Positions 162 through 35,000 of a stretch of DNA of 40,756 bases are shown here, piece after piece. Source of the DNA: a virus; IMG/VR virus record IMGVR_UViG_3300042465_002315, positions 1 through 40,756 of that record; one strand, 5' to 3'. The notes under the pieces are model-generated. The model had not been told where the DNA came from and did no database searches. It saw only the letters and a list, made by a program, of their open reading frames with translations. A program made the translations under genes and the position numbers. The stretch's first letter is position 1, and each line of letters starts with the position of its first letter.

Positions 162-672
162 TAATTCAGGCTGTTTAACTGCCAAATAAGCCCGCACCGG
201 CGACTAATTTGTGCCCCGAATCCGTTCTGATGTGTGACGGCAGGGTATTCTGAGTGGCAGCAGAGACGTAAATCAGTATCCTTAACAGGACCACGATGGA
301 ATATGCCTACATACAATCCGTTTGATTTATAAGAGAAATTTTAAACAAGGCTAAAAGAGGGAGAAATACCCACGGCTTATCGCATGTTAACGTATGCTTT
401 GAGACCCGCCGTTGTATAAAGACTCAGCTCGTGGTACCGGACAACCGCCACTGTAATGCTGTAACGTTAAGTGAACTGATCAACTCAGATAATGTTCATT
501 TTTTGCCCGCCAGGGCAAAGTGTGACTGAACAATCTAGATAATATTTACAGTGCTTCGCACTTAATAGTTCTTATAAAAAAGAAACAATAGGTGTTAGAG
601 CGCAAGCGATAACACAGAAGAACGTTAGTTCTTCTTCATACAGTTGATAAATATCACATAGAGGATATACAA
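162..672. other. Intergenic region without a credible gene, hairpin-rich at its right end
   Basis: No frame here has a start, ribosome site and sufficient length to be called a gene. Two short open stretches (234-332 and 326-529, different frames) may be remnants of a decayed gene. The right half holds consecutive inverted repeats: 502-519 (TTTGCCC/GGGCAAA, loop GCCA), 550-562 (AGTGC/GCACT), 569-584 (TTCTT/AAGAA), 592-615 (GTGTTA/TAACAC enclosing CGC/GCG) and 616-635 (AGAAGAAC/GTTCTTCT, loop GTTA). None is followed by a clear U-run, so classic rho-independent termination is not shown. The row could be a structured RNA, a processing region or a promoter-proximal insulator. Confidence 0.5.
646..653 (+). 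promoter_or_regulatory. Late-promoter-like octamer GATAAATA
   Basis: GATAAATA differs at one position from the T4 late promoter TATAAATA. It ends 19 nt before the start codon at 673, with AGAGGA (about 659-664) as ribosome site in between. The same motif recurs ahead of other transcription units in this window. Confidence 0.55.
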
Positions 673-1683
673 ATGAAGATTTACGACATAATTAGCGAGG
701 ATACAGTTCAAGAAGGTGCTGTTGACCTGTTAAAGCTGGCTGGTAGAGGACTTGCTTCCGGCGCTAAGTATATCGCACAAACTGGTTCACGTAGAGACCT
801 AGTTAGTATGATGTCACAAAATAGTCAGATTATCCGTAACACACTGCGTGGAACTCAGCCCACAGTTGCCCAAATTGAAGCAACATATGGTCCACGTGCC
901 GCAGAGATATATTCTAAAGATCCTAACTTTATGGCCAAAGTTCTTAAGCAGTTTCATGCTGATAGACTTGCTCGACGAGGAGCACCGCCACCAGGAACAC
1001 CTCCTGTTCCACCAGTACTTCCAAGTGGAGCATCTTTAATAAGTAAAATTCCAGTTACTGGACTAGTGGCCAAAGCTATATCAGTCTACGGAATTTATGA
1101 TATGGTTCAAGACTACAACAAAGGTATTGAATATTTTGATGAGCAATTAAAAAACGGAATGTCTAAAGAAAAATACGACGCCGGTGTTGCTCATCTAAAA
1201 TCAACATTGGTATTTCAAATTGCCGCTTTTGGACCTATATTTTCTATAGTAAAACATTTATCTGGATGGACTGCACTGGGAGCAATGCTTAGAGGTAGTG
1301 GGTCTTCATTTGCGCAAAAACTTGGCGCCAATATGGGATCAATGAGTGCAGTTGCCCGTGCAGCACTTATCTCGTCATTAAATACTAAAGAAGCTAGAGA
1401 ACTTTGGTCTGATATGTTCATTGGCGGCACGCTGGACAATATTGGAAAAATGACATACGATGGTGTTACTGGTTTATTTAATTCAGCTAAAGCAAAAGCT
1501 AAAGAAAAAATTACCGGAGAACCGGCTGACACAGCAAGCGATACTGCTGCCCCGGCAGAAAAAGACGCAACATCAACCGCCGAACCAGTAACACCGGCTA
1601 GTACAAACACATCACCTTATAAATCAGAAGTACCTAGTACTTCAACTTATAAAGGTAATCCAATGTTTAAAGGCATTAATTAA
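673..1683 (+). CDS. Hypothetical protein, 336 aa, alanine-rich with a hydrophobic centre
   Basis: I do not recognise a family. ATG 673 follows AGAGGA with good spacing and a late-promoter-like octamer. The N-terminus (MKIYDIISED) is short and charged. A proline-rich linker sits near residues 103-116 (APPPGTPPVPPVLP). Two hydrophobic stretches follow, near 122-145 and 178-195 (LVFQIAAFGPIFSIVKHL), which could be membrane-associating helices. The tail from about 280 is rich in Ala, Thr, Pro and Ser and ends in YKGNPMFKGIN. Low-complexity flanks around amphipathic or hydrophobic helices suit an internal virion or membrane-interacting protein, but that is inference. Its stop codon overlaps the stop of the convergent gp51-like frame (1680-1682). 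Confidence 0.7.
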   Translation: MKIYDIISEDTVQEGAVDLLKLAGRGLASGAKYIAQTGSRRDLVSMMSQNSQIIRNTLRGTQPTVAQIEATYGPRAAEIYSKDPNFMAKVLKQFHADRLARRGAPPPGTPPVPPVLPSGASLISKIPVTGLVAKAISVYGIYDMVQDYNKGIEYFDEQLKNGMSKEKYDAGVAHLKSTLVFQIAAFGPIFSIVKHLSGWTALGAMLRGSGSSFAQKLGANMGSMSAVARAALISSLNTKEARELWSDMFIGGTLDNIGKMTYDGVTGLFNSAKAKAKEKITGEPADTASDTAAPAEKDATSTAEPVTPASTNTSPYKSEVPSTSTYKGNPMFKGIN

Positions 1684-1913
1684 ACAAACGGCTGTTGCAT
1701 TACTTTAGACAATTCCATATTATCTGAAATAATTTTATACATTAGTGTGCGGTCTTCATAGCTGTAGGTATGCATTAGATCATTAATACTAACGCCACCT
1801 CGCATATACCAACTAATTCTAAACAATTCTTCTTTAAAGTTAATTGCTTCTTTATCAAGCCTAACTAGATACTCTTCAATTTCCTGGGTGGATAATCTAG
1901 TTAGGCGGTTGCG
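1680..1913 (-). CDS. 51: gp51-like baseplate hub assembly frame, reached only by -1 frameshift from the gp26-like gene
   Basis: Reading the minus strand from 1913 in the frame one base back from the gp26-like gene gives 77 codons ending at TAA 1680-1682. Motifs include LSTQEIEEYL, FKEELFRISWYMRGG, SYEDRTLMYKII and SDNMELSK, which match my memory of T4-type gp51 (baseplate hub assembly catalyst). The frame opens after a stop at 1956-1958, and there is no ATG, GTG or TTG between that stop and the conserved part. The first in-frame TTG and ATG fall well inside it. The frame joins the gp26-like frame exactly at a slippery TTTTTTC, so the product should be a 349-residue gp26-gp51 fusion (272 + 77). 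The gene is too short and lacks a start, so automatic callers would miss it. Confidence 0.75.
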   Translation of the reverse strand, partial: RNRLTRLSTQEIEEYLVRLDKEAINFKEELFRISWYMRGGVSINDLMHTYSYEDRTLMYKIISDNMELSKVMQQPFV

Positions 1914-1919
1914 AAAAAA
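1859..1919 (-). promoter_or_regulatory. Predicted programmed -1 ribosomal frameshift signal
   Basis: On the minus strand the gp26 frame reads TCT TTT TTC (plus positions 1921-1913), which places the heptamer T TTT TTC in the X XXY YYZ phase needed for tandem -1 slippage. Six nucleotides later (1912-1907) starts a perfect 12-bp inverted repeat: GCCTAACTAGAT at 1906-1895 pairs with ATCTAGTTAGGC at 1870-1859, around a 24-nt loop. The zero-frame stop (1903-1901) lies inside the first stem arm. Slippery site, spacer of 5-9 nt and a strong downstream stem are the three standard parts of a -1 frameshift element. Confidence 0.8.
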
Positions 1920-2728
1920 GATGAATGATCTAACGCAACACGAAGTGTGTTTTCTTTACCACAACTTTGACACTGCGCTAGTTGCGGAGGAGTTTCCCAT
2001 AGTTGTGTATTTTTATCAATGTGGACTTTAATCTGATCAAACGTAGATTTTTCAGTATTAACTAACCACTCATTAATAAATGCTCGTTCATTAACAATAG
2101 TAGATCCTACTTCAATAGCAGTAATGTTAGCTGAATACACTTCTACTTGTAAAGATCCGTATGCTTCATATAATCTTGACATTTCTTTAGATTTTTCAAC
2201 ACTGTCTTCAATAGTAGCCGCTGATTCTAATTTTTGTCGTAATTCAAAATTACGTTGACTAAACTCTGTAACTTCTTTATAGCACAACGGTCTTAATTTT
2301 ACAACTACATCTTTTAATACAGCACGACTATCAAAAGTAATATGATTATAGTAATCAATGATTTTTGAAAGTTCAAGATCATATTCATTTTCTGTTTGAC
2401 AATGCTCACAAGTATGTCCAACAGTAATAGAATTAGTATAGGTAGCAATGCGTATGGCCGCTAATATTAATTCTAAATCTAAGTTGCTAACTGCCCATCC
2501 GTTGGTAATTGACGGGCAACAACTTTCAATGACTTTAACAGTACTTTCACCAGTTAGTAAAGCATCTGGAGTTTTTATTAGTATTTCGTCCATACCATTC
2601 ATACCGTATACTGGCAACTTGGTAACATCCCCGGTAATTTCTCCGGGACTATTGTACTGACCTTTACTGGGTAAATTAATAAAGATTTTAGGTTGACGAA
2701 AGAACTTCTGTAGTGGATTATTGGCCAT
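1901..2728 (-). CDS. 26: gp26-like baseplate hub / tail assembly protein
   Basis: 275 residues; ATG at 2728-2726 is preceded on the minus strand by GGAG (2738-2735). The N-terminus (NPLQKFFRQPKIFINLPS) and the segment MDEILIKTPDALLTGE followed by VKVIESCCPSI and LELILAAIRIATY match T4-type gp26 as I know it from T4-like phages. Two Cys pairs (CEHC near residue 109 and CQSC near 253) could form a zinc site. T4 gp26 is about 208 aa, so this one is longer. The final codons cover a slippery run, and a gp51-like frame continues in -1. Together with the tape measure gene on the other strand this resembles the two-frame tail assembly chaperones of other tailed phages, a functional parallel that is inferred. 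Confidence 0.8.
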   Translation of the reverse strand: MANNPLQKFFRQPKIFINLPSKGQYNSPGEITGDVTKLPVYGMNGMDEILIKTPDALLTGESTVKVIESCCPSITNGWAVSNLDLELILAAIRIATYTNSITVGHTCEHCQTENEYDLELSKIIDYYNHITFDSRAVLKDVVVKLRPLCYKEVTEFSQRNFELRQKLESAATIEDSVEKSKEMSRLYEAYGSLQVEVYSANITAIEVGSTIVNERAFINEWLVNTEKSTFDQIKVHIDKNTQLWETPPQLAQCQSCGKENTLRVALDHSSFFATA

Positions 2729-2789: not shown

Positions 2790-5120
2790 ATGGTAACAAA
2801 AGTTGCTGATATGACCGTTGACGAATTCTCAGAATCTATTGCTAAAGCAATAGGCGGAAAAGGTGGATCTACTTCATCTTCTCCCACTCCTTCTGCTTCA
2901 CCCTCGGGCATGAACTTTGGGTTTATAGCCGGCTTGGATAAAGCCCTTGCTTCCGGAATTGAAGGGGTTAGCAAACTTGGTAGTACAAGCTCAGCTACCG
3001 CTGGTGCTGTTGGGTTAGTTGGCGCGGCACTAGGTAAACTACCAATTGGCGCAAACAGCGCAGTGGCAGCATTTGGAGCTGTGGATAAAGTTGTAACAGG
3101 ATCAGTTGACAGTTATCAAAAGCAATTGAACGCTGGTACTGCGTTCACTGGCGGCTTGCTAGACATGGAAAAAACTCGTGCTCGAAGTGGATTATCACAA
3201 GAGCAGTTTGCAAAACAGCAAGAGGACATGGCTAAAAACACACTTGGTCTAGCTGGACAAAGTGGCGAAGCTATGAAGAAGTTAACCAGCTTTCAAGACG
3301 AGTTTAAAAAGACAGACGTTGCTAAACAGCTACAATCAACATTTGGCTTATCATCGGACCAGCTTGCTACCTATACTAATACTTGGATTACTCAAAACGG
3401 TAATATAGATTTAAATGATAAAAAAGCAAAAGATGCTGCAATAAAATCTCTTGAGAAAATGACGGAAAACACTATTCGTCAAAGTCAAGAAACAGGTTTA
3501 AGTACAGATGTAATTAACAAACAAAATCGTGCTATGAACGAAAGTCTTCAAATGCAATTAATGCGTTTAGAAGGTGATGAAAAACAAAATGAAGCACTGA
3601 GTGATCTTATGCCGCAGTTGGTTGGGCTTGGTCCGGCATTACAGAATCTTGCCCTTGAAGCATCGTCTGATATGGGAGTAACTGGCGACAAAGCAGTTAT
3701 GACTCAAGGTGCTCTAGGGTCACAGGGTGTTGAATTTAGTGATGCTGTTAGAAATCTAAAAGCAGTGTCCGAGCGTGGCGGATCACCAGAAGAGAAAAAG
3801 GCAGCAGAAATGCGTCTTGAAGCGGCAAAGATTGAAGTCAACACTTTAATGCGTTCAAAAGAATTTACACAGATGGCAGAAGTTGAACGCCGAGGTGGGC
3901 AAACTGGTACTAACGGAGCAATGTTAGAACTAATGAAAGAAAGAATGCCAAACTTACAAAAAGAAAAAGCACAATCTATCGATCTTCAACGACAAGGCAT
4001 GTCAGGCGACCCACAACAAGTGGCGGCATACAGTAAAGAACAAACAAATAGAGCTATGGCAGGCGTTGATGCTAATGGCAACAGACGAGCCGGTGATGAA
4101 GCATTAGCTGCAGGCAATCAAGCAAATACTCGAGTTCGTGATGAAATGATTAATCTCGAAGTTGAGGGTATTAGAAGAGTTATCAAAGGGTTAGATAACT
4201 TTGCCGGCAAGTTAAATGAAGTAACTGGAAAAATTGGTGGCGGCAGATACACCTCTGGGGAAATAGCAGGCAACCCTGCTACAGGTCAAAAACCATTAGG
4301 GCAACAACAAACTGAAAATACACCAAGGGTTCCAAACTTATATCCAAAACGTCATACTGGAACTGAGGGTGAAATTGATTCAAGATTTGAACCAAAAGAT
4401 GCTACTGTTAATATTTCTAAGGGTGAAAACGTATTAGATCCGTCAAAGGCTAAAAAATATGATGCCATTGGCGGAGAAGCAGGCCTAGATAAAATGATGG
4501 CCGGATTAAAACCGCCAGCTATTGATGTTAAATCATTAACTGGAGGAATGGATCCAAGTAAGATGTTTGGGGACATGCAGAAGCAAATGACACCTATGAT
4601 GGAAAACATGCAGAAGCAAATGACTCCAATGATGGAAAACATGCAGAAGCAAATGACTCCAATGATGGGCGATATGCAAAAGCAGATGTCTAGTACGTTT
4701 AGCAATATGAAGATGCCAAGCGGCTTTGATGATAAGAAACTTACCAGCATGATTGGTAATATTAAACAGCCTGATCCGGGACAGTTAGCCAATATGGCTA
4801 AGTCTATGATACCACCGGCCGACAATTCAGCGGCATCAGCATCCAGAGATATGATTAGTAACTTAAAAAATGCTACATCCTCTATGGCGCAATCGTCCAA
4901 ACCTCCTGAATCAGCAGTAGCAACACCAGTAACCGCTGAAGAACCAACTAATATTGCTCCACCAGTAGCTACAGATTCATTCAATAGTGACGTACTAAAT
5001 GCTTTAAATAACTTAAATAAGCTAACAGCACAAAGTCTTGATGCGCTTGTTCGAACCGCAGGTCACGCTGAAAAGACAGCAGGTGGCATTGACGGGTTAA
5101 ATGGCAATAGATTTGGCTAA
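2790..5120 (+). CDS. Probable tail tape measure protein
   Basis: 776 residues. A low-complexity Ser/Pro/Gly stretch near 24-40 precedes an alanine/glycine-rich hydrophobic region (about 65-105, containing GAVGLVGAALGKLP). A long, mostly helical, Gln/Lys/Glu-rich body runs from about 120 to 490. Near 530 there is RHTGTEGEID and then a KGENVLDPSKAKKYD segment; an HTGT...GE.VL pattern is common near the C-termini of phage tape measure proteins. A methionine-rich repeat (MQKQMTPMMEN, four copies) follows from residue 596. T4 gp29 is about 590 aa, so this is longer. The gene faces away from the gp26/51 unit and abuts the portal gene. In T4 the gene before the portal is the tail tube gp19, so the order differs. 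A role as another internal tail or head protein is possible. Confidence 0.6.
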   Translation: MVTKVADMTVDEFSESIAKAIGGKGGSTSSSPTPSASPSGMNFGFIAGLDKALASGIEGVSKLGSTSSATAGAVGLVGAALGKLPIGANSAVAAFGAVDKVVTGSVDSYQKQLNAGTAFTGGLLDMEKTRARSGLSQEQFAKQQEDMAKNTLGLAGQSGEAMKKLTSFQDEFKKTDVAKQLQSTFGLSSDQLATYTNTWITQNGNIDLNDKKAKDAAIKSLEKMTENTIRQSQETGLSTDVINKQNRAMNESLQMQLMRLEGDEKQNEALSDLMPQLVGLGPALQNLALEASSDMGVTGDKAVMTQGALGSQGVEFSDAVRNLKAVSERGGSPEEKKAAEMRLEAAKIEVNTLMRSKEFTQMAEVERRGGQTGTNGAMLELMKERMPNLQKEKAQSIDLQRQGMSGDPQQVAAYSKEQTNRAMAGVDANGNRRAGDEALAAGNQANTRVRDEMINLEVEGIRRVIKGLDNFAGKLNEVTGKIGGGRYTSGEIAGNPATGQKPLGQQQTENTPRVPNLYPKRHTGTEGEIDSRFEPKDATVNISKGENVLDPSKAKKYDAIGGEAGLDKMMAGLKPPAIDVKSLTGGMDPSKMFGDMQKQMTPMMENMQKQMTPMMENMQKQMTPMMGDMQKQMSSTFSNMKMPSGFDDKKLTSMIGNIKQPDPGQLANMAKSMIPPADNSAASASRDMISNLKNATSSMAQSSKPPESAVATPVTAEEPTNIAPPVATDSFNSDVLNALNNLNKLTAQSLDALVRTAGHAEKTAGGIDGLNGNRFG
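4575..4706 (+). repeat. 33-bp in-frame tandem repeat, four copies
   Basis: Copies start at 4575, 4608, 4641 and 4674. The first three are nearly identical at the DNA level and the last is diverged. Each encodes an 11-residue unit of the MQKQMTPMMEN type inside the tape measure candidate. Near-identity suggests recent expansion by slippage. Confidence 0.9.
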
Positions 5121-9874: not shown

Positions 9875-11041
9875 ATGTCAGAACTACTTAATGGCCGTTG
9901 GGCAGAAACTAAAGAAGCCCTATTAGAAGGCTTATCAGGCACTAAAAAATCAGTAATGGGTGTTACACTTGACAATACTCGCAAGTATTTGATGGAATCC
10001 CCAACTGCTGGTGCCACTTCTGCCGGCAACGTCGCAACACTAAATCGCGTGATCCTTCCAGTGATCCGTCGCGTTATGCCAACCGTTATCGCTAACGAGT
10101 TAGTTGGTGTACAACCAATGACTGGCCCAGTTGGCCAAATTCACACATTACGTGTGCGTTACGCTGACTCAGCAACTGGTGTAACAGCCGGTGAAGAGGC
10201 ACTAAGCCCATTCAAAATTGCTGAAGCTTATTCAGGCAACGATGCTGATCCAGCAAAAGCAGCCTCTACAGCAACTCTTGAAGGTGCTGCAGGTAAGCGT
10301 ATGTCAATTCAGATCTTGAAGCAAACTGTAGAAGCTAAGACCCGCAAGCTATCAGCTCGTTGGACTTTTGAAGCTGCACAAGATGCTCAAGCTCAACAAG
10401 GTATTGACATCGAAGCAGAAGTTATGGCTGCGTTAGCACAAGAAATCACAGCTGAAATCGACCAAGAAATTCTTGCTAGTTTAGCAAGTTTAGCTGGTTC
10501 AGCTTCACAAACTTATGACCAGGCTGCTGTAAGCGGTACTGCTACATTCGTTGGTGACGAACACGCCGCTTTAGCTGTTCAGATCAATCGCGTAAGCAAC
10601 TTGATCGCTCAGCGTACACGTCGTGGTGCTGGTAACTGGGCAGTAGTAAGTCCATTTGCTTTAACAATTCTACAATCTGCTACTACAAGCGCATTTGCTC
10701 GTACAACAGAAGGTACATTTGAAGCTCCTACAAACACTAAGTTTGTTGGTACATTGAACTCAGCAATGAAAGTATATGTAAACAGCTACGCACAAGACAG
10801 TACAGCAGTATTGATCGGTTACAAAGGTTCATCAGAGTCTGATGCGGCAGCGTTCTATTGCCCATACATTCCATTGATGAGCAGTGGTGTTGTACTTGAT
10901 CCATCAACATTTGAACCAGTCGTATCATTCATGACACGTTATGGTTATGTTGAGTTGTCAAACACAGCTAGTTCTTTAGGTAATGCAGCTGACTACCTAG
11001 GTAAAGTTGCTATCACTGACGGTAACGTTAAGTTTAGCTAA
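9875..11041 (+). CDS. 23: Major capsid protein (gp23), short form
   Basis: 388 residues against 521 in T4 gp23. Recognisable T4-type stretches include NVATLNRVILPVIRRVMPTV (52-71), QPMTGPVGQIHTLRVRYA, RKLSARWTFEAAQD, AEVMAALAQEITAEIDQEIL, GAGNWAVVSPFALTIL and a C-terminal DPSTFEPVVSFMTRYGY. The N-terminal region contains LLE (16-18) and LME (39-41), either of which fits the gp21 cleavage rule; cutting after E41 would leave a mature protein of about 347 aa. The shortness points to loss of peripheral insertions present in T4, but the core HK97-like fold should be intact. Ribosome site is AAGGAG; a strong hairpin follows the stop. Confidence 0.95.
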   Translation: MSELLNGRWAETKEALLEGLSGTKKSVMGVTLDNTRKYLMESPTAGATSAGNVATLNRVILPVIRRVMPTVIANELVGVQPMTGPVGQIHTLRVRYADSATGVTAGEEALSPFKIAEAYSGNDADPAKAASTATLEGAAGKRMSIQILKQTVEAKTRKLSARWTFEAAQDAQAQQGIDIEAEVMAALAQEITAEIDQEILASLASLAGSASQTYDQAAVSGTATFVGDEHAALAVQINRVSNLIAQRTRRGAGNWAVVSPFALTILQSATTSAFARTTEGTFEAPTNTKFVGTLNSAMKVYVNSYAQDSTAVLIGYKGSSESDAAAFYCPYIPLMSSGVVLDPSTFEPVVSFMTRYGYVELSNTASSLGNAADYLGKVAITDGNVKFS

Positions 11042-11108: not shown

Positions 11109-11195
11109 CTTTGTATGATTCACATCGGGTGAATTTTATGCGGAAATCCAACCGCGTATAGCCTAGAACGCTATCTTTCTTAAGGAGAAAATAAA

Positions 11196-12113
11196 ATGGG
11201 ACGTCCTTTAAATAAAAAATATTTTGGTAACCGTAATACTGGTTCCACAAGTGTAACAACTGATGATGGCATTGGCGGCGGAGCAGTTGCTAGTGTTACA
11301 TTAAACGCATTAGGCGCATATACAACTCGCCCAACAATTACATTTGCCAACACACCTAAATTACCAGGTGGTGTTCGTGCTACTGGTACTATCACTTCTG
11401 AAGTTGAAAGCGTAACAACAGTTGGCGGTACACAAACTGGTTATACAGTTGGTCAATTAGTAACAGTTGACGGTACAGACGCAGTATTGCGTGTTGCTAC
11501 AATTGGTGGCACAGGCGGCGACGATGCGTTAACATTTGACTTCACTGGTGGTAGCCGTGGTAACTTTACTACATTGCCAAGCGGTGCTCAAACTACTACA
11601 TCAAACGGCGCAGGCGCTGGTTTAACAGTAGTGTTAGCATTCCGTGCTAAAGCAGTTGTTATTACAGAAGCAGGTTCTGGATACACAGCCGCACCAACTC
11701 CAACATTTACACAATCAGTAACGGCTACTTCAGTTAACATGTTAGTTGACAGCGGTAACATTAGCACAACTGGAAATCAAGAAAATGCTATCTTAATGAC
11801 AGCATTCTTAACTGGCGGATCAGCACTATCAGTTGATATTAAGAAACAAGTATCTACTAACCGTTTCAAAGTAACTGATGGCACACTTACTGGTATTGTT
11901 AAACTAACAGGTTCATTAGCCGATGCCGCTGGCGAAGGTAGTGTTCGTTTAGTTGACACAGATGATGGCACATATTTTGCTACTAAAATTACAAGCCGTA
12001 AAGCTGTAATTACTCGCGGTACAGGTACACAAACAGCATTTGTAACAGGTACATCTGTTAAGTGGAACATGACAGCGGCAACAGCAGATTCGTTATTAAT
12101 CGACAACGCTTAA
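11196..12113 (+). CDS. Virion structural protein with GSGYT-type repeats, 305 aa
   Basis: The opening MGRPLNKKYFGNRN is one I associate with conserved structural proteins of marine T4-like phages. The body is Thr/Gly/Val-rich, predicted all-beta, with repeated motifs: GAYTTRPTITFA (near 42-53) and GSGYTAAPTPTFTQ (near 161-174), plus a central GGTQTGYTVGQLVTVDG and GGTGGDDALTFDF. The same GSGY-type unit recurs in the giant fibres of this window. The C-terminal part (LTGSLADAAGEGSVRLVDTDD) looks like a separate small beta domain. It is the first gene of the post-capsid late unit. A decoration, neck or fibre role are all possible. Confidence 0.75.
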   Translation: MGRPLNKKYFGNRNTGSTSVTTDDGIGGGAVASVTLNALGAYTTRPTITFANTPKLPGGVRATGTITSEVESVTTVGGTQTGYTVGQLVTVDGTDAVLRVATIGGTGGDDALTFDFTGGSRGNFTTLPSGAQTTTSNGAGAGLTVVLAFRAKAVVITEAGSGYTAAPTPTFTQSVTATSVNMLVDSGNISTTGNQENAILMTAFLTGGSALSVDIKKQVSTNRFKVTDGTLTGIVKLTGSLADAAGEGSVRLVDTDDGTYFATKITSRKAVITRGTGTQTAFVTGTSVKWNMTAATADSLLIDNA

Positions 12114-23028: not shown

Positions 23029-26000
23029 ATGGCAGAATTTAAATTAAACAGAATTAGATTTACTTGGAAATCAGACTGGGCAACCGCCACCGTCTATACT
23101 AAAGACGACATTGTTCGATACAGCGGAAAATCTTATGTATGTTTAGTGGGGCACACTGCGTCAGCTGATTTTAATACTGATCTAGAATTTATTAATACTA
23201 CGCCTCAACCAGATCTCGCTGATCCAAAATGGGTACTATGGTTTGACGGATACGAATGGAAAGGCAACTGGGAACGTACTACTTTTTATGATCTAGGTGA
23301 TTATGTTAGATACAACGGAATAGTTTATATCTGTAACGAAAGTCATACTAGCGCATCGACGGTAACACTGGGGCTAGAATCTGATCAAAGTAAATGGACG
23401 GCGTATGCTATTGGTGATAATTGGACCACTGATTGGACTCCTTCTCGTAGATATAAACTAAATGACCTTGTGCGTTACAGCGGTAGAATTTATAAATGTA
23501 CTCTAGGACACACGGCCTCGGCAACTACTGCGCTAGGATTAGAAGCAAACAGTGGAAACTGGACTTTACTAAGTTATGGTTATGAGTGGAAAACTGACTG
23601 GGCTATTAATACTAGATACAAAATTGGCGACATTGTTAAATACGGCGGAATTGTATATACTTGTACGTTAAATCATACATCTGCCTCTACACTTGCTACA
23701 GGTATTGATCCTAATATTAGTAACTGGAGTGTACTACACAACGGTATAGAATACAAGACATACTGGACCGCAAGTACTCGATATAAATTAAATGATATTG
23801 TAAAATACGGTGCTGACTTATATATCTGTGTAATTTCACATACATCTGACATTGGATTTAACACTGATAATTTTTCTGTGTGGGTTCCTGGATTAGAGTT
23901 TGTCAACGCATGGGACGCTGCAGTTTATTATATTAAAGGTGATATAGTTACCTATGGTGGCTACCAGTATACTAGCAATACTACAAACAATATTGCAAAC
24001 ATTCCATCAACTAGTACAGTAAATTGGACACTACTTGTAAAGAATTATAATATTCGTAATGAATGGGACTCGGCCATAGCATATAAAACTGGTGACCTAG
24101 TAAGACGCGGTGGCTATCTATATGTTGCGGTTGCTGACAGTATAAATCAAGATACATTGAATAATACTGCGTTCTGGGAAATTGTTATCCCAAGCATGAA
24201 GTGGATGAATCGATGGTTAATTAGTACAACTTTCACTATCGGCGATGTAGTAACATATTATTCAACAGCATATATTTGTACCAACACACATCTTTCAGCA
24301 AATCCGCCTACAATTGATACTGGTAACTGGGACATATATGTTAGAGGCGAGCAGTTTGAAACTTTGCAAACACAAGGTGATATACAATCATTTAACCAAG
24401 GTGTCCCGGCAGCAGTTGCTATTGGCGTGGACGGAGCATTATTAAAAGCAAAAATTTCGCCAAGCACGTTGCTGTCAGTACCGTCATGGGATAGTTGGGG
24501 AATTATTGGAAAAGTTTATTATGTCTCTCCAACAGGAACGGACCGACCAGATTATGGGTTAACAGTTCAAACGGCATGGAGAACTGTCAAGTACGCCTGC
24601 GAACAGGGCGGCGGGTCACCGGCTCCTGGTCAGCCAAACGGTCCACTAGTGGGCCCGGCAACTATTAATATTAAGACTGGTACGTACAATGAAACACTAC
24701 CAATTAAGATTCCGGCAGGTGTTGCCTTAGTAGGTGATGAATTGCGGGGTACGGTTATTCAACCAGCAGTTGTTATTAATTGTATTGCAACAGCTTCAAG
24801 CTCGTCTACCAATAGAATTACTGTTAATACCACAGTTGGTATTACAGCAAATATAAACATACAAATAGTAACTCCTACAATTATTACCACAGCAACCGCT
24901 ACATCGTCAGATGGCAATAAGATTACGTTAGGATTCACCATCGGAGCATATATTAATATGCCGGTAGTGTTTACTGGCCCTTCCTCTTTTGGTAACATAG
25001 TAGCAGGAACAACCTATTATATACAATCATACGATTCTGTAACTGCTACTATTACAGTCAGTGCCGCCTTTGGTAGCTCAGTAATTGTTACTCAAATTGA
25101 TGCCGCTGGCGCAATGACGGCAACACTTGGGGGGTTTGCAGGACTCGAATCCGGACAAACATATTATGTAATTGGCTCATCAATTACACCAACAACATTC
25201 CAAGTGTCATTTACAGCAAATGGCGTTGTTCCACTACCCTTAACAGACACTGTCGATCAGTCTGCAGCCGTTTACGGCGGTGACGCAATTAAAGATATGT
25301 TTTATGTTCGTAACGCTTGCGGAATTCGTAACATGACATTGACTGGACTACTTGGCGGATTAGGTCCGGCAAACTCATATGGTTCTAAACGACCAACCGG
25401 CGGAGCATATACATCATTAGATCCAGGAACGGGTCCAGATGACACTTCGGTACACATCACTACTAAATCACCATATACTCAAAACGTTACCTTATTTGGA
25501 AAAGGATGTGTTGGATTAAAGATTGACGGAACTTTACACAACGGTGGAAACAGATCCATTGTTGCTAACGACTATACCACGCTGATTAGCGAAGGTATCG
25601 GCGTGTGGTGTACCGGTCCTTCTTCATTAACTGAATTAGTATCAGTGTTTGCTTATTATAGTCATTGCGGATATATTGCGGAAAACGGCGGAAGAATTCG
25701 TGCTACTAACGGAAATACATCTTATGGTGATTACGGATGCGTAGCTGAAGGATTTGATCTTACTGAAGTTCCTATTACTGGCACTGTTAATAATAGAAAT
25801 CAACATGCTCAGATAGCATCAGCATTTATTGGAGAGGCAACTAACAAACTTCTCAAATTAGAATTTAGCAACGCTGGTCAAAATTATACAGGCGCATCGT
25901 TTGCGTTTACAGGCGCAGGTTCGGGAGCCAGTGTAATTGCTGACGAATTTAGGGATAATGGTATTTTTGAATCTCGAATTTTAGGATCAGATTTTTCAGC

Positions 26001-28971
26001 AGGCGGAAGCGGATATCTAACTTCCGGTAACCAAGCACAAGCCGGAGACCTTCAAACAATTACAATTGCGTCAAATGATCAAAATACTTTTGACAACTAT
26101 TACGGCATGCGAGTAATTATTACTAGTGGTACCGGAGTTGGCCAATACGGATATATTGCGTATTACGATGCGGTTGGTAAAATAGTCACAGTGGGAAAAG
26201 AAGGTACTACTGCACTAACATCATCAGCAACATCTGCCACAAATAACATAATTTCAGTACAAGACACAACATCATTTCCAGTAGGGACAGCAGTAGTAAT
26301 AGTTCCAAATCAACAGAATACTACGGGATTTTTAACGTCAAGAACTATTGTTAACATATCAGCTGGATATATTATAGGAACTACGTTATATGTTACTTCA
26401 GTAACTAGCGGAGCTATCGCGGTAGGAATGGTGTTATCTGGGTCTACTATTTTAGCTAACACTAGAATTGAAGCAAATATTTCAGGATTTAGTGCCGGTA
26501 GTGTTTGGAGACTTAGTATTGGACAAACTGTCGGCACAGTATTAGCACCAGTTGCAATAACTGGAGTTAATAATTTAGTATCATTAACATCAACGGTGAA
26601 CATGTATGTTGGAGAGTTGATTGTGTTTAGCGGTTCAACTTTTGGAAACATTGTAAGTGGAACTCAATATTATATTAATAATATTATAGGATCAACGGTT
26701 GCTATAAGCGCCACAGCAGGCGGTGGCGTATTTACCTTAGCAAATGCCACTGGCTCTATGTCAGTAGTCGCAGGTGGTATGTTAGGCGGCCTAACAACAG
26801 GGCAAATATATTACGTTATTGCTGCAAACTATTCGTTAATAGGATTTGCGGTCAGCACAGTACCGGGAGGTACTGCGGCAACGGTTACTACTCAAACGGT
26901 GGGTAGTTTTATGGCAGTACATGCTGTTGGCTGGGAAAACATTGTAGCAGGCACAGCCGCAGTGACTCCTATAGATTCAACTACAGTATACTCAATTGAA
27001 CCAAGTATTAGATTTGAAGAACCACCGTTTCAAGCGCAATTAAAAGGAATGCCAGTAGGTAACTGGAAATCAGTAGCATTTGGTAACGGTCGATTTGTTG
27101 GAATCTCAACTACTGGAACATCGGTGTATTCGCTAACAGGTAGCGACTGGGTAGCAGGCGGCAATTTACCCGCAGGTACTTGGGCCACGGTAACATTTGG
27201 CGGCGTTAATAATGTATTTGTAGCAGTAAACTCTGCATCGGCCACTGTTGCTTGGACAACAGACGCAATATTGTGGAACACATCAACTAGTTTATCATTA
27301 ACTGGGTTTAACGCAATAGCATATGGAGGCGGAAAATTTATAGGAATAGCACCTGGTTCAACCAACAGCGCAGGCACATCAGTTGATGGCGCAACTTGGG
27401 CCACCCTTCCGAGTCCCTTACCTGTTACTGCAACCTGGAATAGTATAGTATATGGCAGTATCGGAACTTGGGTGGCAATTACAGGAGCTTCTAATAATGT
27501 AGTTGCGTATTCAACCGACGGCGGCGGAACTTGGGCACAATCAACGTTACCTGCTAGTATAAACTGGATTTCAGTAGCATGGGGCAACGGTCGATTTGTT
27601 GCCATTGCGTCGGGATCAGCAATTTCTGCGTATTCGTTTGATGGCATAACATGGATTCAATCAACTCTTCCGGTAGCAACACTGTGGACAGACCTACACT
27701 ATGGCCAAGGACTATTTTTTGCGGTTGCTTCGGGTACAACTGCAGCAACATCAAGCTCAGACGGTGCTTCGTGGCGCAGTAGAAGTCTGCCAAACGGGTT
27801 GGCATGGTCTTCAATAACCTTTGGCAATCCCGCAATAGACTTGATTGTTACACCTGGCTGGGTAGCATTGGCAAACACTGGTAGTATTTCTTCAGCATAC
27901 ATTAAAACAGGCGCTCGTGCTCTTGGACGAGTAACCGTTGCTTCTAGCAAAATAAGTTCAATTAAATTATGGGAACCTGGTAGTGGTTACTTGACCTCTT
28001 CAGCACCAACCGCTACTATAACAGATCCCAATTACACGTTACAAGTAGTAACTCTTTGTAGGACTGCTGCCGGAGTTCTTGGGAATCCAACGTTTATTTC
28101 TAGAGGTACTGGATATCGAACATCAACTACTGTTGTAACTGTTGTTAACGGAACAGGATTTGCGGATATATATCAAACAGCAAAATTTTTAACAATAAGC
28201 GGACTAGCAAGTTTACCTACACCTGGCGCAGCCTTAACTATATCAGGCGATGCAACACAGTATCGTATTGTAGTTATTAATAATCTTGGAGCAGGTACAG
28301 TAAACTTTCAAATCGCTCCTCCATTATCAATTCTAGTTGCTCCTGCGCACGGCGTAGCAACTAGTATTCGACAAAAGTATAGTCAGTGTCGTATTACTGG
28401 ACACGACTTTTTATTAATTGGTACTGGTAATCAAACAATAACTAATTATCCAAATGTGGACGTAACAACTGCGCTACCGTTTCAACAAATCGTTGAAAAT
28501 AATGGAGGTCGAGTATTCCAAACATCAACAGACCAAGACGGTAATTTTAAAGTTGGAAATTTATTCCAAGTTGAACAGGCATCGGGTATTGTTACAATTT
28601 CAGCAGACCAATTAAGTTTAACTGGATTACAAACGTTATCACTTGGTGGATTTTCAATCGGAACTAACGCTATTGTAATCACACAGTTTAGTACAGATAG
28701 TTTTTTTACTGCTAACAGCGATGCTATTGTCCCAACACAGAAAGCAATTAAGTCATATTTGTCAAGAAATATTGCTGGTGGCGGCGCCAATGCTCAAGCA
28801 GGCGCAGTGGTGGCGGGTACGTTTGGAGTAGGCGGACCAAACAGAATATATTCTACAGTTCAAGGGCAGTTGTTTGTTAGAAACTCGATGAATCTTAGAA
28901 AGGGAATTAATGGAACAATGGTTGCTAAATCGTTCTTCCACAGTGGTTTTGGGTCAGGTAACCAAAAATAA
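23029..28971 (+). CDS. Giant modular fibre: eight carbohydrate-binding-like repeats, beta-helix, seven-bladed propeller; 1980 aa
   Basis: Residues 13-440 hold eight repeats of about 50-64 aa with pattern W-xxx-W ... Y-xx-x-D-x-V-xY-xG-xxY-x-C ... H-TS ... W (e.g. RYKIGDIVKYGGIVYTCTLN), like the chitinase-type CBM5/12 fold. Near 496 comes VYYVSPTGTDRPDYG and later IKTGTYNETLPIKIP with GDELRGTVIQPA, a pectate-lyase-like beta-helix entry. From 756 a block shared with the next gene begins: GIRNMTLTG, KSPYTQNVTLFGKGC, GNRSIVANDYTT, GIGVWCTG, LTELVSVFAYYS. Residues about 1344-1620 contain seven W-x-SV-x-[YF]-G-x-G-x-F-V-AI ... DG-x-TW units, suggesting a seven-bladed propeller. The C-terminal domain has GGRVFQTSTDQDGNFKVG and IVPTQKAIKSYLS, typical of large cyanophage fibres. 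It has its own late promoter. Binding roles are inferred from folds; no hydrolase residues were assigned. Confidence 0.87.
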   Translation: MAEFKLNRIRFTWKSDWATATVYTKDDIVRYSGKSYVCLVGHTASADFNTDLEFINTTPQPDLADPKWVLWFDGYEWKGNWERTTFYDLGDYVRYNGIVYICNESHTSASTVTLGLESDQSKWTAYAIGDNWTTDWTPSRRYKLNDLVRYSGRIYKCTLGHTASATTALGLEANSGNWTLLSYGYEWKTDWAINTRYKIGDIVKYGGIVYTCTLNHTSASTLATGIDPNISNWSVLHNGIEYKTYWTASTRYKLNDIVKYGADLYICVISHTSDIGFNTDNFSVWVPGLEFVNAWDAAVYYIKGDIVTYGGYQYTSNTTNNIANIPSTSTVNWTLLVKNYNIRNEWDSAIAYKTGDLVRRGGYLYVAVADSINQDTLNNTAFWEIVIPSMKWMNRWLISTTFTIGDVVTYYSTAYICTNTHLSANPPTIDTGNWDIYVRGEQFETLQTQGDIQSFNQGVPAAVAIGVDGALLKAKISPSTLLSVPSWDSWGIIGKVYYVSPTGTDRPDYGLTVQTAWRTVKYACEQGGGSPAPGQPNGPLVGPATINIKTGTYNETLPIKIPAGVALVGDELRGTVIQPAVVINCIATASSSSTNRITVNTTVGITANINIQIVTPTIITTATATSSDGNKITLGFTIGAYINMPVVFTGPSSFGNIVAGTTYYIQSYDSVTATITVSAAFGSSVIVTQIDAAGAMTATLGGFAGLESGQTYYVIGSSITPTTFQVSFTANGVVPLPLTDTVDQSAAVYGGDAIKDMFYVRNACGIRNMTLTGLLGGLGPANSYGSKRPTGGAYTSLDPGTGPDDTSVHITTKSPYTQNVTLFGKGCVGLKIDGTLHNGGNRSIVANDYTTLISEGIGVWCTGPSSLTELVSVFAYYSHCGYIAENGGRIRATNGNTSYGDYGCVAEGFDLTEVPITGTVNNRNQHAQIASAFIGEATNKLLKLEFSNAGQNYTGASFAFTGAGSGASVIADEFRDNGIFESRILGSDFSAGGSGYLTSGNQAQAGDLQTITIASNDQNTFDNYYGMRVIITSGTGVGQYGYIAYYDAVGKIVTVGKEGTTALTSSATSATNNIISVQDTTSFPVGTAVVIVPNQQNTTGFLTSRTIVNISAGYIIGTTLYVTSVTSGAIAVGMVLSGSTILANTRIEANISGFSAGSVWRLSIGQTVGTVLAPVAITGVNNLVSLTSTVNMYVGELIVFSGSTFGNIVSGTQYYINNIIGSTVAISATAGGGVFTLANATGSMSVVAGGMLGGLTTGQIYYVIAANYSLIGFAVSTVPGGTAATVTTQTVGSFMAVHAVGWENIVAGTAAVTPIDSTTVYSIEPSIRFEEPPFQAQLKGMPVGNWKSVAFGNGRFVGISTTGTSVYSLTGSDWVAGGNLPAGTWATVTFGGVNNVFVAVNSASATVAWTTDAILWNTSTSLSLTGFNAIAYGGGKFIGIAPGSTNSAGTSVDGATWATLPSPLPVTATWNSIVYGSIGTWVAITGASNNVVAYSTDGGGTWAQSTLPASINWISVAWGNGRFVAIASGSAISAYSFDGITWIQSTLPVATLWTDLHYGQGLFFAVASGTTAATSSSDGASWRSRSLPNGLAWSSITFGNPAIDLIVTPGWVALANTGSISSAYIKTGARALGRVTVASSKISSIKLWEPGSGYLTSSAPTATITDPNYTLQVVTLCRTAAGVLGNPTFISRGTGYRTSTTVVTVVNGTGFADIYQTAKFLTISGLASLPTPGAALTISGDATQYRIVVINNLGAGTVNFQIAPPLSILVAPAHGVATSIRQKYSQCRITGHDFLLIGTGNQTITNYPNVDVTTALPFQQIVENNGGRVFQTSTDQDGNFKVGNLFQVEQASGIVTISADQLSLTGLQTLSLGGFSIGTNAIVITQFSTDSFFTANSDAIVPTQKAIKSYLSRNIAGGGANAQAGAVVAGTFGVGGPNRIYSTVQGQLFVRNSMNLRKGINGTMVAKSFFHSGFGSGNQK

Positions 28972-29032: not shown

Positions 29033-32000
29033 ATGGCTGAATTTAAATTAGGTAGAATCCGCTTTATCTGGAAGAACAACTGGGCAGCGGCTGTAACATA
29101 TGTCAAGGACGACATTGTTAGAAATGGTGGAAAAACTTATCTATGTGTGATTGGCCATACAGCTGACGCTAATTTCTATACCGACTTGAATAATGCTCCA
29201 ACAAGATGGAATCAAGTATCTGACGGTTCTGAATGGAAAGATAACTGGACAACTGGGTTTTACTATAAAGTTAACGATCTAGTAAAATACGGCGGAAGAA
29301 TTTATCTATGTAACACAGCGCACACTAGCAATGCGGCAGCATCTTCAGGCACAAGCCCAGAAACAACCGCAGGCCTTGAAGCAGATCAAAGCAAGTGGGA
29401 TTTATATGCTAGTAGTTTCAACTTTAGAGATAACTGGGCAACAAGTCAATTTTACAAAATTGGGGACGTAGTTAGATACGGTGGTATTTCTTATGTATGT
29501 AACACAAGTCACACTTCAAGCTCTACAGCTTCAACTGACATCGACGGATTAGAAGCAGATCAAGGCAAGTGGGATACTTACGCCAAAGGCCTTGACTGGA
29601 TCGGCAATTGGACAACCGGCTATCGTTATAAGAGAAATGACGTTGTGCTATACGGCGGAACAACTTATGTATGTAACACTGGCCACGCTTCGGCAGCAAC
29701 TGCAACACTAGGACTTGAAAACGATCAAGGATTATGGGATTATTTCCATAAGGGGATTACATTCTTAGGTACTTGGAGTGGCAGCACAGTACGTTACAAA
29801 GTAAATGATGTTGTCAAGTACGGTGCCGATCTTTGGATTTGTACCTTAGACCATACATCAGCTGCACTGTTTTCAGATGCTACTAATTGGTCGTTGTTTG
29901 TTGGCGGATTAGAATACGAAAACAGCTGGTCAGCTAGTGAAGTGTATCAACCAGGTGACGTTGTGTCATACGGTGGCTATGCATACATTTCTAAAACAAA
30001 TCATACCAATAAAATTCCAACTAGCAATCTTTCTGATTGGGATCTATTTACTACTGGATTCAGTTTCCAAGGTGACTGGGCAACTGCTACAGATTACAAA
30101 GTAGGACAAGTTTTAAGATTAAATGGGTACACATATGTTGCCCTATTAGATCATACTTCAAGCGCATTAAATATTCCGCCTGATCTTACCAACTGGTCTA
30201 GATTAAACAGCGGCGTTAAATGGGCGGCCACTGGCCAAACATTTGCCGGTGTAGTAGGTTCAAACTTAATTGGCAGCGGTACCGGAGCATCGTTTAACAT
30301 TACGTTAGTAAACACTAGATATACTGCTACAGTTAATGCTGCAGGATCTGGGTACATTACCGGAAATACTGTTACTATCTTAGGAACTCAAGTAGGCGGA
30401 ATCTCCCCGGCTAATGATGTCATATTAACAATTACTGCTACCGCAGGCGCAGTAGACTCAGCAACTACATTAGGTTCTTCTGTATCATGGAAAACTGGAG
30501 TGTCATATGTCCTAGGCGATGCTGTAGCATTTGGTGTTAATAGCTATATTTGTATACTTGCTCACACTGGCGGCACGCCAAACAGACCAGACAACGATGT
30601 AACTGGCACCTATTGGAATTTATTATCAGCAGGAGCAATTACATCTGTGCTAACCACACAGGGCGACACGTTATATATGGGTGGAGCAGGACCAACTAGA
30701 TTACCAATTGGGACTGACGGACAAGTATTGCGTGTTAACGGTACAACACCGCAATGGTCATATTTTGGTGTAGTTAACAACATTGTATATGTAGCACCTA
30801 GCGGTACTGATGTACTGGGCGCAGGGCAAGGCCTAACTATTGACAAGCCTTGGAAAACTGTTAGATTTTCAGCTCGACAAATTGAAGAAGGATATTTAAA
30901 TCCTAATGCTGCACTGCTACTTACAAAAAATAAACAATTTATAGTTAAAGAACTTTCTAACTATGTTACATATACTAGTAGAGTAACAATTACATCATCA
31001 AACGCAACGTTATTTACTACGTCAACTTCAACGTCAGTTTTATCAGTGGGTATGCCAATTAGTTTTACTACTACTGTGGGCGGAGTTACTCCGGGAACAA
31101 CATATTACGTATTTGATATTCCTGCCGGCGGAACAACATTTGGAATAACAAATGCTTCTGGCGGCACCCGACGAACGTTATCGGTAGAAACAGGCGCAAA
31201 CGTTGGATCGTACGTATTCAGCACAGTACCAACAGAAAGAGACGCTGGCATTATTGTTGATGCGTTGGCATTTGATATTAGCCATAGCGGGACTTTACAG
31301 ACAACAACGGCAGCTCTAGCATATTTTGCTCCAGGTGGCGCGACATTTGCAGCAGGAAATATTCCTGGAGAAATTCCACAATTTATTCGAGCACTAGATT
31401 ATCTTAAAAATAAATTAGTAGTTAATATTTTAACAAATACTTCTCCAGTAGACAACTATCAAACATTAAATAGCGTATCTGCATCAGCACAGGCTAAACA
31501 AATTATTGATCCTATTATCCCTGCTGAAATTGGAACTTCAACTACTGCTACAAATCTAGTAAGTATTATTACTACAGGTTTGGCTTCAGGTACAACATCA
31601 GCAATTCCTGCTGTTATAAATCCTGGTACAACTATTTCAGTTAAAACTGGCACATATTCAGAAACATTGCCAATTATAGTTCCTAAGAACACTGCGGTTG
31701 TTGGCGACGAATTACGTAGTAGTGTAATTCAACCAGCAACGGCCGATATGACATTAGTTACTGATAAGCCAAAAACTATATCAGTGTTAAACAGACTAAA
31801 GGCAATTGTTCCTAACCTAGTAACTAATACTGCGGTGACACCTACAAGCGGTAATACCGCATCTCAGGTGTATTTAGGTTATGCCGGAACAACAGCAACA
31901 TCATCAGTATCAGCAAATCTTATTACAATATCAGACATTGTTGATAATGGTTTAGGAGTAGTACCGGCATTCACGTTACCTGATCCTACAAGCTACGATA

Positions 32001-35000
32001 CTGGATATTTTAATGCTCGCAGATTGATTGTTGCGAACAAGGCATTTTTAGTATCAGAAGTTAGTGCGTGGATTAACGCACAGATTGCAGGCAACATTGC
32101 TCCGTTTGTTGGATTTACATATGGTGGAGTAGATCAGACAAGTTGTGAACGTGATGTTGGTTACATTGTTGATGCTGTAGTTTATGATTTAACATATGGT
32201 GGAAACTTAGAAACTCTAGTTGCCGGTCGCTCATATTATACATTTGGAGCATACGTTGGTGATCCTGCTTCAAAGCTTCGTGCGTTAGCAGTTCAGGCAC
32301 GTATTAAAGATATCATTGATAATATTGCTACAGGTAATACTGCGGGCTGGACCAAAACTACTGGACTGACTCAGGATGTAAGCGGTACTGCGGGATCAGC
32401 TAATGCGGCAGCATTTGCTCAAGCACGTATTCAAGATATATACACTACAATTAACACTGGTACACCTCCAGCAGAACTTACACCAAGCATTACATGGGTG
32501 AGTACACTTTTACAAATGGCTGCAGCAGATGTTCAAGCAAGAAAAGCCTCAATACAAGCAAGTGCCGTAGCGTGGGTTCAATCAAACTATCCGTTGCTAG
32601 TGTTTAACACAGAAACATGTTCACGAGATGTTGGTTATATTGTAGACGCATTAACATACGATTTAATGTTTGGTAGTAATTTTAGATCAGTTAAAGCTGG
32701 AATGAGTTATTATACCGCACAAGCCGCTTTAGTAGTTGGTGCGCAAAAAGCCGCACAGCTAGGTATGTTGGCGTATATGTCAGATATTGTTACAGACATT
32801 ACTACTGGTATTGGAAGTAGCGGTATTGGCAGTAGCGCATCAGTAGCATCTATCTTGACCAACTCTGCAATCATGAATGATATTGTTCAGAACGGTCTAA
32901 CAGCAGTTCCAACATTTACATTTACTAACCCAACAGGATATAACACTAGTTTCTTAGCAGGGTATGGTGACGGTAAAGCACAAATTGTACAAAACTATGC
33001 GTTTATTAAAGATGAAGTTTCTAGTTATTTAAATACAAACTTTAACGCAGTATGGGTAGCATTAGGCGTCGGCGGCCAAGCAAACTGCCAACGTGACGTA
33101 GGATACATCCTTGATGCTTTACAATATGATATGACTTATGGCGGCAATACGCAAACATTAATTGCCGGTAGTGCATATTATTCTAATGCTACATTAACCA
33201 TTGCGTCAATTGAAAAAACAGCAACTATTGCGGCATATACATGGTTGAAAAGTTTTATTGATAATATTGTTATTAAAGATACCGCAGGCTGGACTAAAAA
33301 TTCAGCACTTAGTCAAGTAGTTACAGGAACTGCCGGTTCAGCAGGCGCCGCAACATTTGCTCAAGATCGTGTTCAATCTATCATAGATTGGATTACTAAC
33401 GGCACAGCCCCGGCAACAATTCTTCCAACGGCAGCGATTGCCTTGGCTAGTACTCCTTTGCAAAATGCTTACAACGCACTACAATTAGCAAAAACTGAAA
33501 TTCAATCTGACGCAGTAAGTTGGGTTCGCAAATTTTACCAAGCGTTAAATTTTAATAGTGACACTTGTTATAGAGATGCTGGATATATTGTTGATGCGTT
33601 TAGCTATGATTTGATGTTTGGTACTAATTTCAATTCAATTACTGCAGCAATGTCTTATTACAGAGCAACAACAAGTGCGCAATATGTACTGGCAAATCAA
33701 GCAACTGCCGAACGTGGCGCAATTAATTTTATAGCTCATAAAGCTAAGAAAATTGCAGCATACGACACTGCTGAACAAGTAATAGTGTCAATTGATGATA
33801 TGATTTTATCAATTGCCGGTACAACAACATTTACATCCATTGCTACTCAAACATTTGTAGGCGGCAATATTACTATTCCTAGTACTGCTGGAATGATGCC
33901 TGGAATGCCAATTACATTTGATACTGCTGGCGTAGGAACTCTCTCTACTGGACGAAAATATTGGATTGTGGCAGTTACAAATTCAACAACGTTTACAATT
34001 ACAGAAACATACGGTAGTGTTGTTCTTAAAACATTAACAGCTGATAGTGGTAACACCTCATTCACCATTGGTGAAGTTGTTGAAACTACAGGAACTGGAT
34101 CATATAACAATGTTGTAACTTCAATTAACGGTGCTGAAGTATTACGTGCTAACGCAACATTTTTATCAAACGAAGCTACTGCGTGGGTAGACTATACTTA
34201 CAGCAACACTATAGTAAGTACTGACGGTACAAATAACAGAGCGATCACCGGTACCAATCATAATTTTGTTGTAGGCGACCCTGTAGTATTTTCAGGAACT
34301 ACTTTTGGAAATATTGTAGCAGGAACTGTTTATTACATCTTAACAACACCTACAACAAACGCATTTACACTAACAGCAGTTCAGGGATCAGCAACGGTAT
34401 TTCCGCTAGTCACAGCGTCTGCCTCGCCAGACCCGTTTGCCGTAAAATATAATTTTAGTATTACAGAATATAAGAAAAATACAGCCGCTTACATTAATGC
34501 GCTAGTGTACGATTTAGCTCTCTTAGGAAATTACAAAGCATTACGTGCCGCTACAATATATAAACATTCAGTATCTGGATCAGTATTATCAGATATGTTC
34601 TTGTTACGTAATGGAACAGGCTTAAGAAACATGACATTAAGCGGATTAACTGGTACACTAACTGCTGCAAACAGCTACGGAACTAGCCGAGTAACTGCTG
34701 GAGCATACAGTTCGTTAGATCCTGGATACGGTCCTAACGACAAAAATGTATGGATAAGTCCAAAAAGCCCGTACACTCAAAACGTAACAATGTTTGGTAC
34801 TGGGTGTATTGGTATGAAAATTGACGGAGCATTACACAGTGCTGGTAACAGATCTATTGTTGCTAACGACTATACTACCATTCTAAGTGATGGAATTGGC
34901 GTATGGTGTACTGGATCGCAAGCACTAACTGAGTTAGTATCCGTGTTCGCATACTATTCATATGCTGGTTATCTAGCTGAACTTGGCGGTAAAATGCGAG

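Follow-up and report, generated by a model that had tools for sequence, protein, structure and literature searches.

Background

T4-like bacteriophages reportedly express their tail assembly chaperones in more than one way: some groups rely on frameshifting, and others have one short gene and one long gene (Vladimirov, Gautam and Davidson, Virology 2022, as cited in later papers). Two papers that draw on that study (Vladimirov et al. 2022) agree with this picture, one citing it for T4-like phages in which a short gene is accompanied by a longer fusion gene and no frameshift is used (PRFect, PMC10885494), and the other for poly-T slippery sites in T4-like chaperone genes (the Adele paper, PMC12846349). 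For T4 itself, gp26 and gp51 have been catalogued as chaperones of hub assembly, and the phage particle does not contain gp51 (PMC3004832); T4 was once listed as the exception among long-tailed phages (PMC5009743). The gp51 of cyanophages and vibriophages was described as being without its first ~200 residues, and gp51 was called missing in the phage Aeh1, the short gp51 ORF having been interpreted as a separate gene of reduced size (Sullivan et al. 2010, PMC3037559).

The locus analysed here lies in a stretch of 40,756 nucleotides, hereafter the window, from an uncultivated freshwater T4-like phage (IMG/VR record IMGVR_UViG_3300042465_002315). A first-pass annotation of its sequence had proposed that a gp26-like gene and a gp51-like frame are joined by a programmed -1 ribosomal frameshift. 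This core idea is right and, going by the papers that cite Vladimirov et al., it had already been published; the covariation of the stem, the near-fixed spacer and the breadth across jumbo phages may be additions to the published work. The gene is very probably a T4-type tail assembly chaperone gene expressed via programmed -1 ribosomal frameshifting.

Results

A gp26-like gene with an extension in the -1 frame

The elements of the locus, with the evidence for each, are the following.

1901 to 2728, minus strand: gp26-like gene, short form (TAC-N), 275 aa (ORF, PF12322, PHROG 150, BFVD fold match)
1913 to 1919, minus strand: slippery heptamer, T TTT TTC, read in the zero frame (phase kept at all 123 related loci)
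1907 to 1912, minus strand: spacer GCAACC, 6 nt (best stem 5-7 nt past the heptamer in most loci)
1895 to 1906, minus strand: 5' stem arm GCCTAACTAGAT, holding the zero-frame stop (fold, covariation on 15 relatives)
1903 to 1901, minus strand: zero-frame stop TAA, within the 5' arm of the stem
1859 to 1870, minus strand: 3' stem arm ATCTAGTTAGGC (fold, covariation)
1680 to 1913, minus strand: -1 frame extension (TAC-C), 77 codons and stop (length constancy, variability switch)
2790 to 5120, plus strand: divergent neighbour, 776 aa, weakly assigned as a possible tape measure or other structural protein (weak similarity to RaK2 and Phosso)

The short form matched the Pfam family PF12322 (T4_baseplate) with E=3e-12 and 47 bits against a cut-off of 24.5, as well as PHROG 150 (baseplate hub), and a BFVD search with its model retrieved the predicted folds of T4-like baseplate hub assembly proteins. 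Searches of the PDB with the gp26 model and with the T4 gp26 and gp51 sequences returned nothing relevant; no significant PDB fold match and no lambda-type sequence or solved-structure similarity was found for the gp26 fold. In BFVD, the same fold is also present in uncharacterised proteins of 450-690 aa from the jumbo phages phiEaH2, RSF1, RP12 and Special G, which could, on the strength of these models, be unrecognised tail assembly chaperones.

The protein ends in ...SSFFATA*, the 3' end of its gene reading tct ttt ttc gca acc gcc TAA. The first-pass annotation had placed a slippery T TTT TTC in the correct phase at this end, followed after 6 nt by a perfect 12-bp stem with a 24-nt loop and the zero-frame stop inside the stem. 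The heptamer is indeed found at 1919-1913, and the coordinates bear out the stem, with 12 of 12 pairs formed. No stop interrupts the -1 frame between 1955 and 1683, and it ends with a stop codon at 1682-1680, so that a shift at the heptamer would produce a fusion of 272 + 77 = 349 aa. The extension is exactly 77 codons long in every complete relative of the window clade. A separate gp51-like gene was not found in the window, which is a genome fragment.

The end of the extension and that of a convergent ORF on the plus strand (673-1683) have overlapping stop codons in the palindrome TTAATTAA at 1680-1683. Elsewhere in the window, Rfam models matched a Polynucleobacter-1 RNA at the left end of the fragment (66.8 bits, 189-332, plus strand) and, in the interval that separates the major capsid gene gp23 (9875-11041) from the next ORF (11196), a freshwater-2 RNA (11118-11198, plus strand). 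An ORF of 1980 aa (23029-28971, plus strand) contains at least five CBM5/12 carbohydrate-binding repeats and adjoins one of 3011 aa (29033-38068); the two probably encode fibres or whiskers.

Conservation of the slippery heptamer

A scan of viral contigs yielded 35 close-relative loci, and TTTTTTC is in phase at all 33 window-type junctions that were readable, the -1 frame continuing in each into the conserved 77 residues. An in-phase heptamer with a -1 extension was likewise present in the eight reference jumbo phages without exception (phi30-2, Phosso, Atu_ph07, CBB, GAP32, XaC1, RaK2 and Munch), in cyanophage DSL-LC02 and in Aeromonas phage Ah1, and both features were also found in the vibriophages phi-pp2 and PG216, Menderavirus YB07, Busanvirus ACP17 and Syn19. 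Pelagiphage HTVC008M and Emdodecavirus phiM12 have them too, with the site reading TTTTTTT. Among the 80 marine loci added to the comparison, the distinct junctions are all TTTTTTC with the exception of one TTTTTTT. The T6 core, as TTTTTTC or TTTTTTT, is in phase in 123/123 screened loci, which argues against chance. As judged from these genomes, the frameshift arrangement is common to most of the T4-like viruses examined outside the T4 group, and it was seen in RaK2-, GAP32- and PA5oct-type jumbo phages, Atu_ph07, cyanophages, a pelagiphage, KVP40-type phages and others.

This breadth bears on the reading that an error of sequencing or assembly split one ordinary gene. Homopolymer errors are common, but 123 loci, drawn from independent assemblies and finished reference genomes, are all split in this way and at this position; the breadth of the pattern refutes such an error, the probability of which is practically nil.

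The constraint on the site was described in a non-redundant set of 68 loci (<90% identity). The residue preceding Phe-Phe is S, N, D, A, H or R and the third base of its codon is always T; given the amino acids and codon usage, the log10 probability of nnT TTT TTC is about -67, a value that ignores shared ancestry. The distance from the heptamer to the zero-frame stop ranges from 3 to 42 nt across loci, the stop drifting and the heptamer remaining fixed. Moreover, third-position variability follows the zero frame upstream of the heptamer and the -1 frame downstream of it, in the window and marine clades alike. The comparative evidence for programmed -1 frameshifting is very strong.

Start codons and exceptions to the heptamer

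Absence of a start codon ahead of the conserved part of the gp51-like frame had been reported in the first-pass annotation, and it holds: the earliest ATG, GTG or TTG of this frame in the window is a TTG located 29 codons past the slip, inside conserved sequence. The same absence of ATG, GTG and TTG in the -1 frame ahead of the slip was recorded in 65 of the 68 non-redundant loci, and a standalone start codon for the -1 ORF was found unlikely. These counts weigh against the idea that the -1 ORF is a small gene in its own right, the translation of which would depend on an internal start or on reinitiation or coupling where gp26 stops. An expression of this kind is suggested by Pseudomonas phage Cygsa01 (locus L047, near 4309), which keeps the -1 extension without the heptamer and features a TAATG overlap, an ATG of its own and an annotated 57-aa ORF; furthermore, internal ATG starts are given in the database annotations of Atu_ph07, CBB and GAP32. 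Reinitiation would nevertheless leave the invariant heptamer and the stem at fixed spacing unexplained, and for the window gene it is considered very improbable, programmed frameshifting being preferred.

In the Ackermannviridae phage PhiSH19 (locus L139, near 3241), the gp26 homologue also keeps a -1 extension with no T6 heptamer (ATTTTCATTTAATTTTTTG) and no ordinary start. PhiSH19 and Cygsa01 likely produce their long or separate form by another means, and since both keep the -1 frame without the heptamer, other expression routes exist. In Enterobacter phage EC-F2 (Pseudotevenvirus), a long and a short gene adjoin.

A covarying stem-loop downstream of the heptamer

Folding of 1859-1919 on the minus strand, a check put forward with the first-pass annotation, returned a strong stem at -19.1 kcal/mol, compared with a mean of -7.9 kcal/mol for dinucleotide shuffles (z = -4.7, 0/200 shuffles as good). 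In an alignment of 15 ungapped relatives, 94.4% of stem cells are paired and five pairs are altered in both arms; the covariation score is higher than that of 500/500 shuffles and of every slid version of the alignment. Among the 68 non-redundant loci, the best stem begins 5-7 nt after the heptamer in 52 and lies above the 95th percentile of the gene-body background in 49. Loops range from 9 to 51 nt, with 9 nt in many marine phages, 24 nt in the window and 48-51 nt in Atu_ph07 and Phosso, and folds of single loci gave z values of -2.2 to -6.4. No clear stem was found downstream of the heptamer in RaK2 and Munch (z about +0.5), and the stimulator is therefore not universal. The alignment of related loci advocated at the outset has accordingly revealed conservation of the heptamer, the spacer, the covarying stem and the -1 frame.

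The stem also helps to separate ribosomal from transcriptional slippage, in which the fusion would arise on the T6 run during RNA synthesis. The site consists of six consecutive T, extended to seven in three loci (L102, L138 and L140), as such a process would favour. RNA polymerase slippage usually requires longer runs, however, and here the run is nearly always exactly six T followed by C, with a conserved covarying stem 5-7 nt downstream in the layout of a ribosomal signal. Transcriptional slippage is thus judged slightly less probable still than reinitiation, and ribosomal frameshifting remains the preferred reading.

Relation of the extension to gp51

The paralogy of T4 gp26 and gp51 is directly visible, both matching PF12322 (E = 9e-64 and 4e-52, respectively). 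At its C-terminus, T4 gp51 carries an additional segment that falls within PHROG 634, a family to which gp26 shows no match. The -1 tail of marine relatives aligned with the gp51 C-terminus (hhalign E=1.9e-9, 96%) and matched PHROG 634, 'baseplate hub assembly catalyst' (E=5e-25). For the window tail, the comparison with gp51 was weak, in the same register at E=0.007; taken with the jumbo tails it remained weak at E=0.0012, against 0.52 for a reversed control, and the probability was 20% or less throughout. Homology of the 77-aa tail and the jumbo tails to gp51 is consequently no more than suggestive. The window and jumbo tails are securely related to each other by profile similarity, with E = 2.6e-17 for the tails of Atu_ph07, Phosso and phi30-2 and E = 5e-5 for RaK2-like tails. 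The window tail had no match in the Pfam or PHROG scans, and its predicted fold (pTM 0.47) retrieved nothing from BFVD. Since a direct profile comparison of the window gp26 with a small gp51 alignment aligned the zinc-ribbon part alone, PF12322 serves as the link between gp26 and gp51.

The divergent neighbour

The 776-aa ORF at 2790-5120 had no family match. It is weakly similar to the equally placed divergent structural proteins of RaK2 (E=0.002) and Phosso (E=4e-4), which hints at a tape measure or other structural protein.

Discussion

In the proposed mechanism, most ribosomes would stop at 1901 and release the 275-aa short form. A minority would be halted by the stem-loop while T TTT TTC occupies the P and A sites, move back by one base and read through the stem in the -1 frame beyond the zero-frame stop. 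Their product would be a long form of 349 aa (TAC-NC), which corresponds to T4 gp51. On the model of lambda gpG/gpGT, the short and long forms probably cover the tape measure protein, bring in subunits of the tail tube or hub, and are not retained in the virion. The frameshift efficiency, the existence of the proteins, their binding partners and the chaperone role are what we infer here, and a two-form tail assembly chaperone is the most likely function.

Frameshifting is reportedly conserved in several T4-like groups in the account of Vladimirov and colleagues, which is said to treat genes 26 and 51 as the T4 pair. The two T4 genes had been described in the first-pass annotation as separate and adjacent; adjacent they are, with the correction that they are divergently transcribed. 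The proposed fusion of gp26 and gp51 parts also stands in an amended form, as it is the whole of T4 gp51, and not just its end, that corresponds to the fusion. T4 seems, from family and profile matches, to have paralogous genes for the short form (gp26) and the long form (gp51), whereas other lineages would use one frameshifted gene. Relatives with a standalone gp51 had been named as a case against frameshifting, and T4 itself is such a relative; its layout being derived or alternative, it does not refute the frameshift here. A wider proposal, put forward tentatively and with rather less than even confidence in its parts holding jointly, is that U UUU UUC, a spacer of 5-7 nt and a covarying stem go back deep in the T4-like superfamily, jumbo phages of the RaK2, PA5oct and Atu_ph07 types included, and were the ancestral route to gp26 and gp51, two products later fixed as duplicated genes in the T4 lineage. 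The RNA element and the jumbo branch would then be undescribed, and the jumbo and freshwater extension may be a chaperone C-domain that does not derive from the gp51 end.

The short 'gp51' ORF of cyanophages and vibriophages is the -1 extension of gp26, and it appears without ~200 residues because frameshifting supplies the missing part from gp26. The reading of a truncated gp51 was rejected, as gp26 provides that part in frame. Frameshifting is probably also behind the 'missing' gp51 of Aeh1; in Ah1, which is an Aeromonas phage too, the extension lies in the -1 frame. A recurrent mis-annotation is thereby corrected, in that a 'baseplate hub' gene and a 'hypothetical' or 'truncated gp51' ORF are one frameshifted chaperone gene, which affects cyanophages, pelagiphages, vibriophages and RaK2/GAP32/PA5oct-like jumbo phages. 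The results back published work in which T4 is seen as having this two-form chaperone too, under a different genetic arrangement, and the RNA element is offered for testing in cultivated phages.

Compared with known systems, the window gene resembles the T4-like chaperones of Vladimirov et al., which, as summarised in the papers citing that study, comprise a gp26-family short form and a C-terminally extended long form, with a -1 frameshift in those phages that have a single gene; the present member combines a 275-aa gp26 with a 77-aa extension common to jumbo phages. T4 gp51 consists, like the window fusion, of the short domain and an extension, but T4 makes the two forms from two divergent paralogous genes with no frameshift. 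The suggestion that the T4 26/51 pair is the counterpart of lambda G/G-T is supported, both T4 proteins belonging to PF12322 and gp51 bearing the C-terminal extension, and the same correspondence has reportedly been drawn before (Vladimirov et al. 2022). As in lambda G-T, a short and a long chaperone would come from one gene by a -1 shift at a heptamer near its end. The heptamer differs from that of lambda gpG/gpGT and the window gene is divergent from its neighbour, whereas the lambda-type layout beside the tail tube and tape measure genes is a feature of the marine relatives. In HTVC008M and phiM12 the order is tail tube, gp26, -1 ORF, a small ORF and tape measure.
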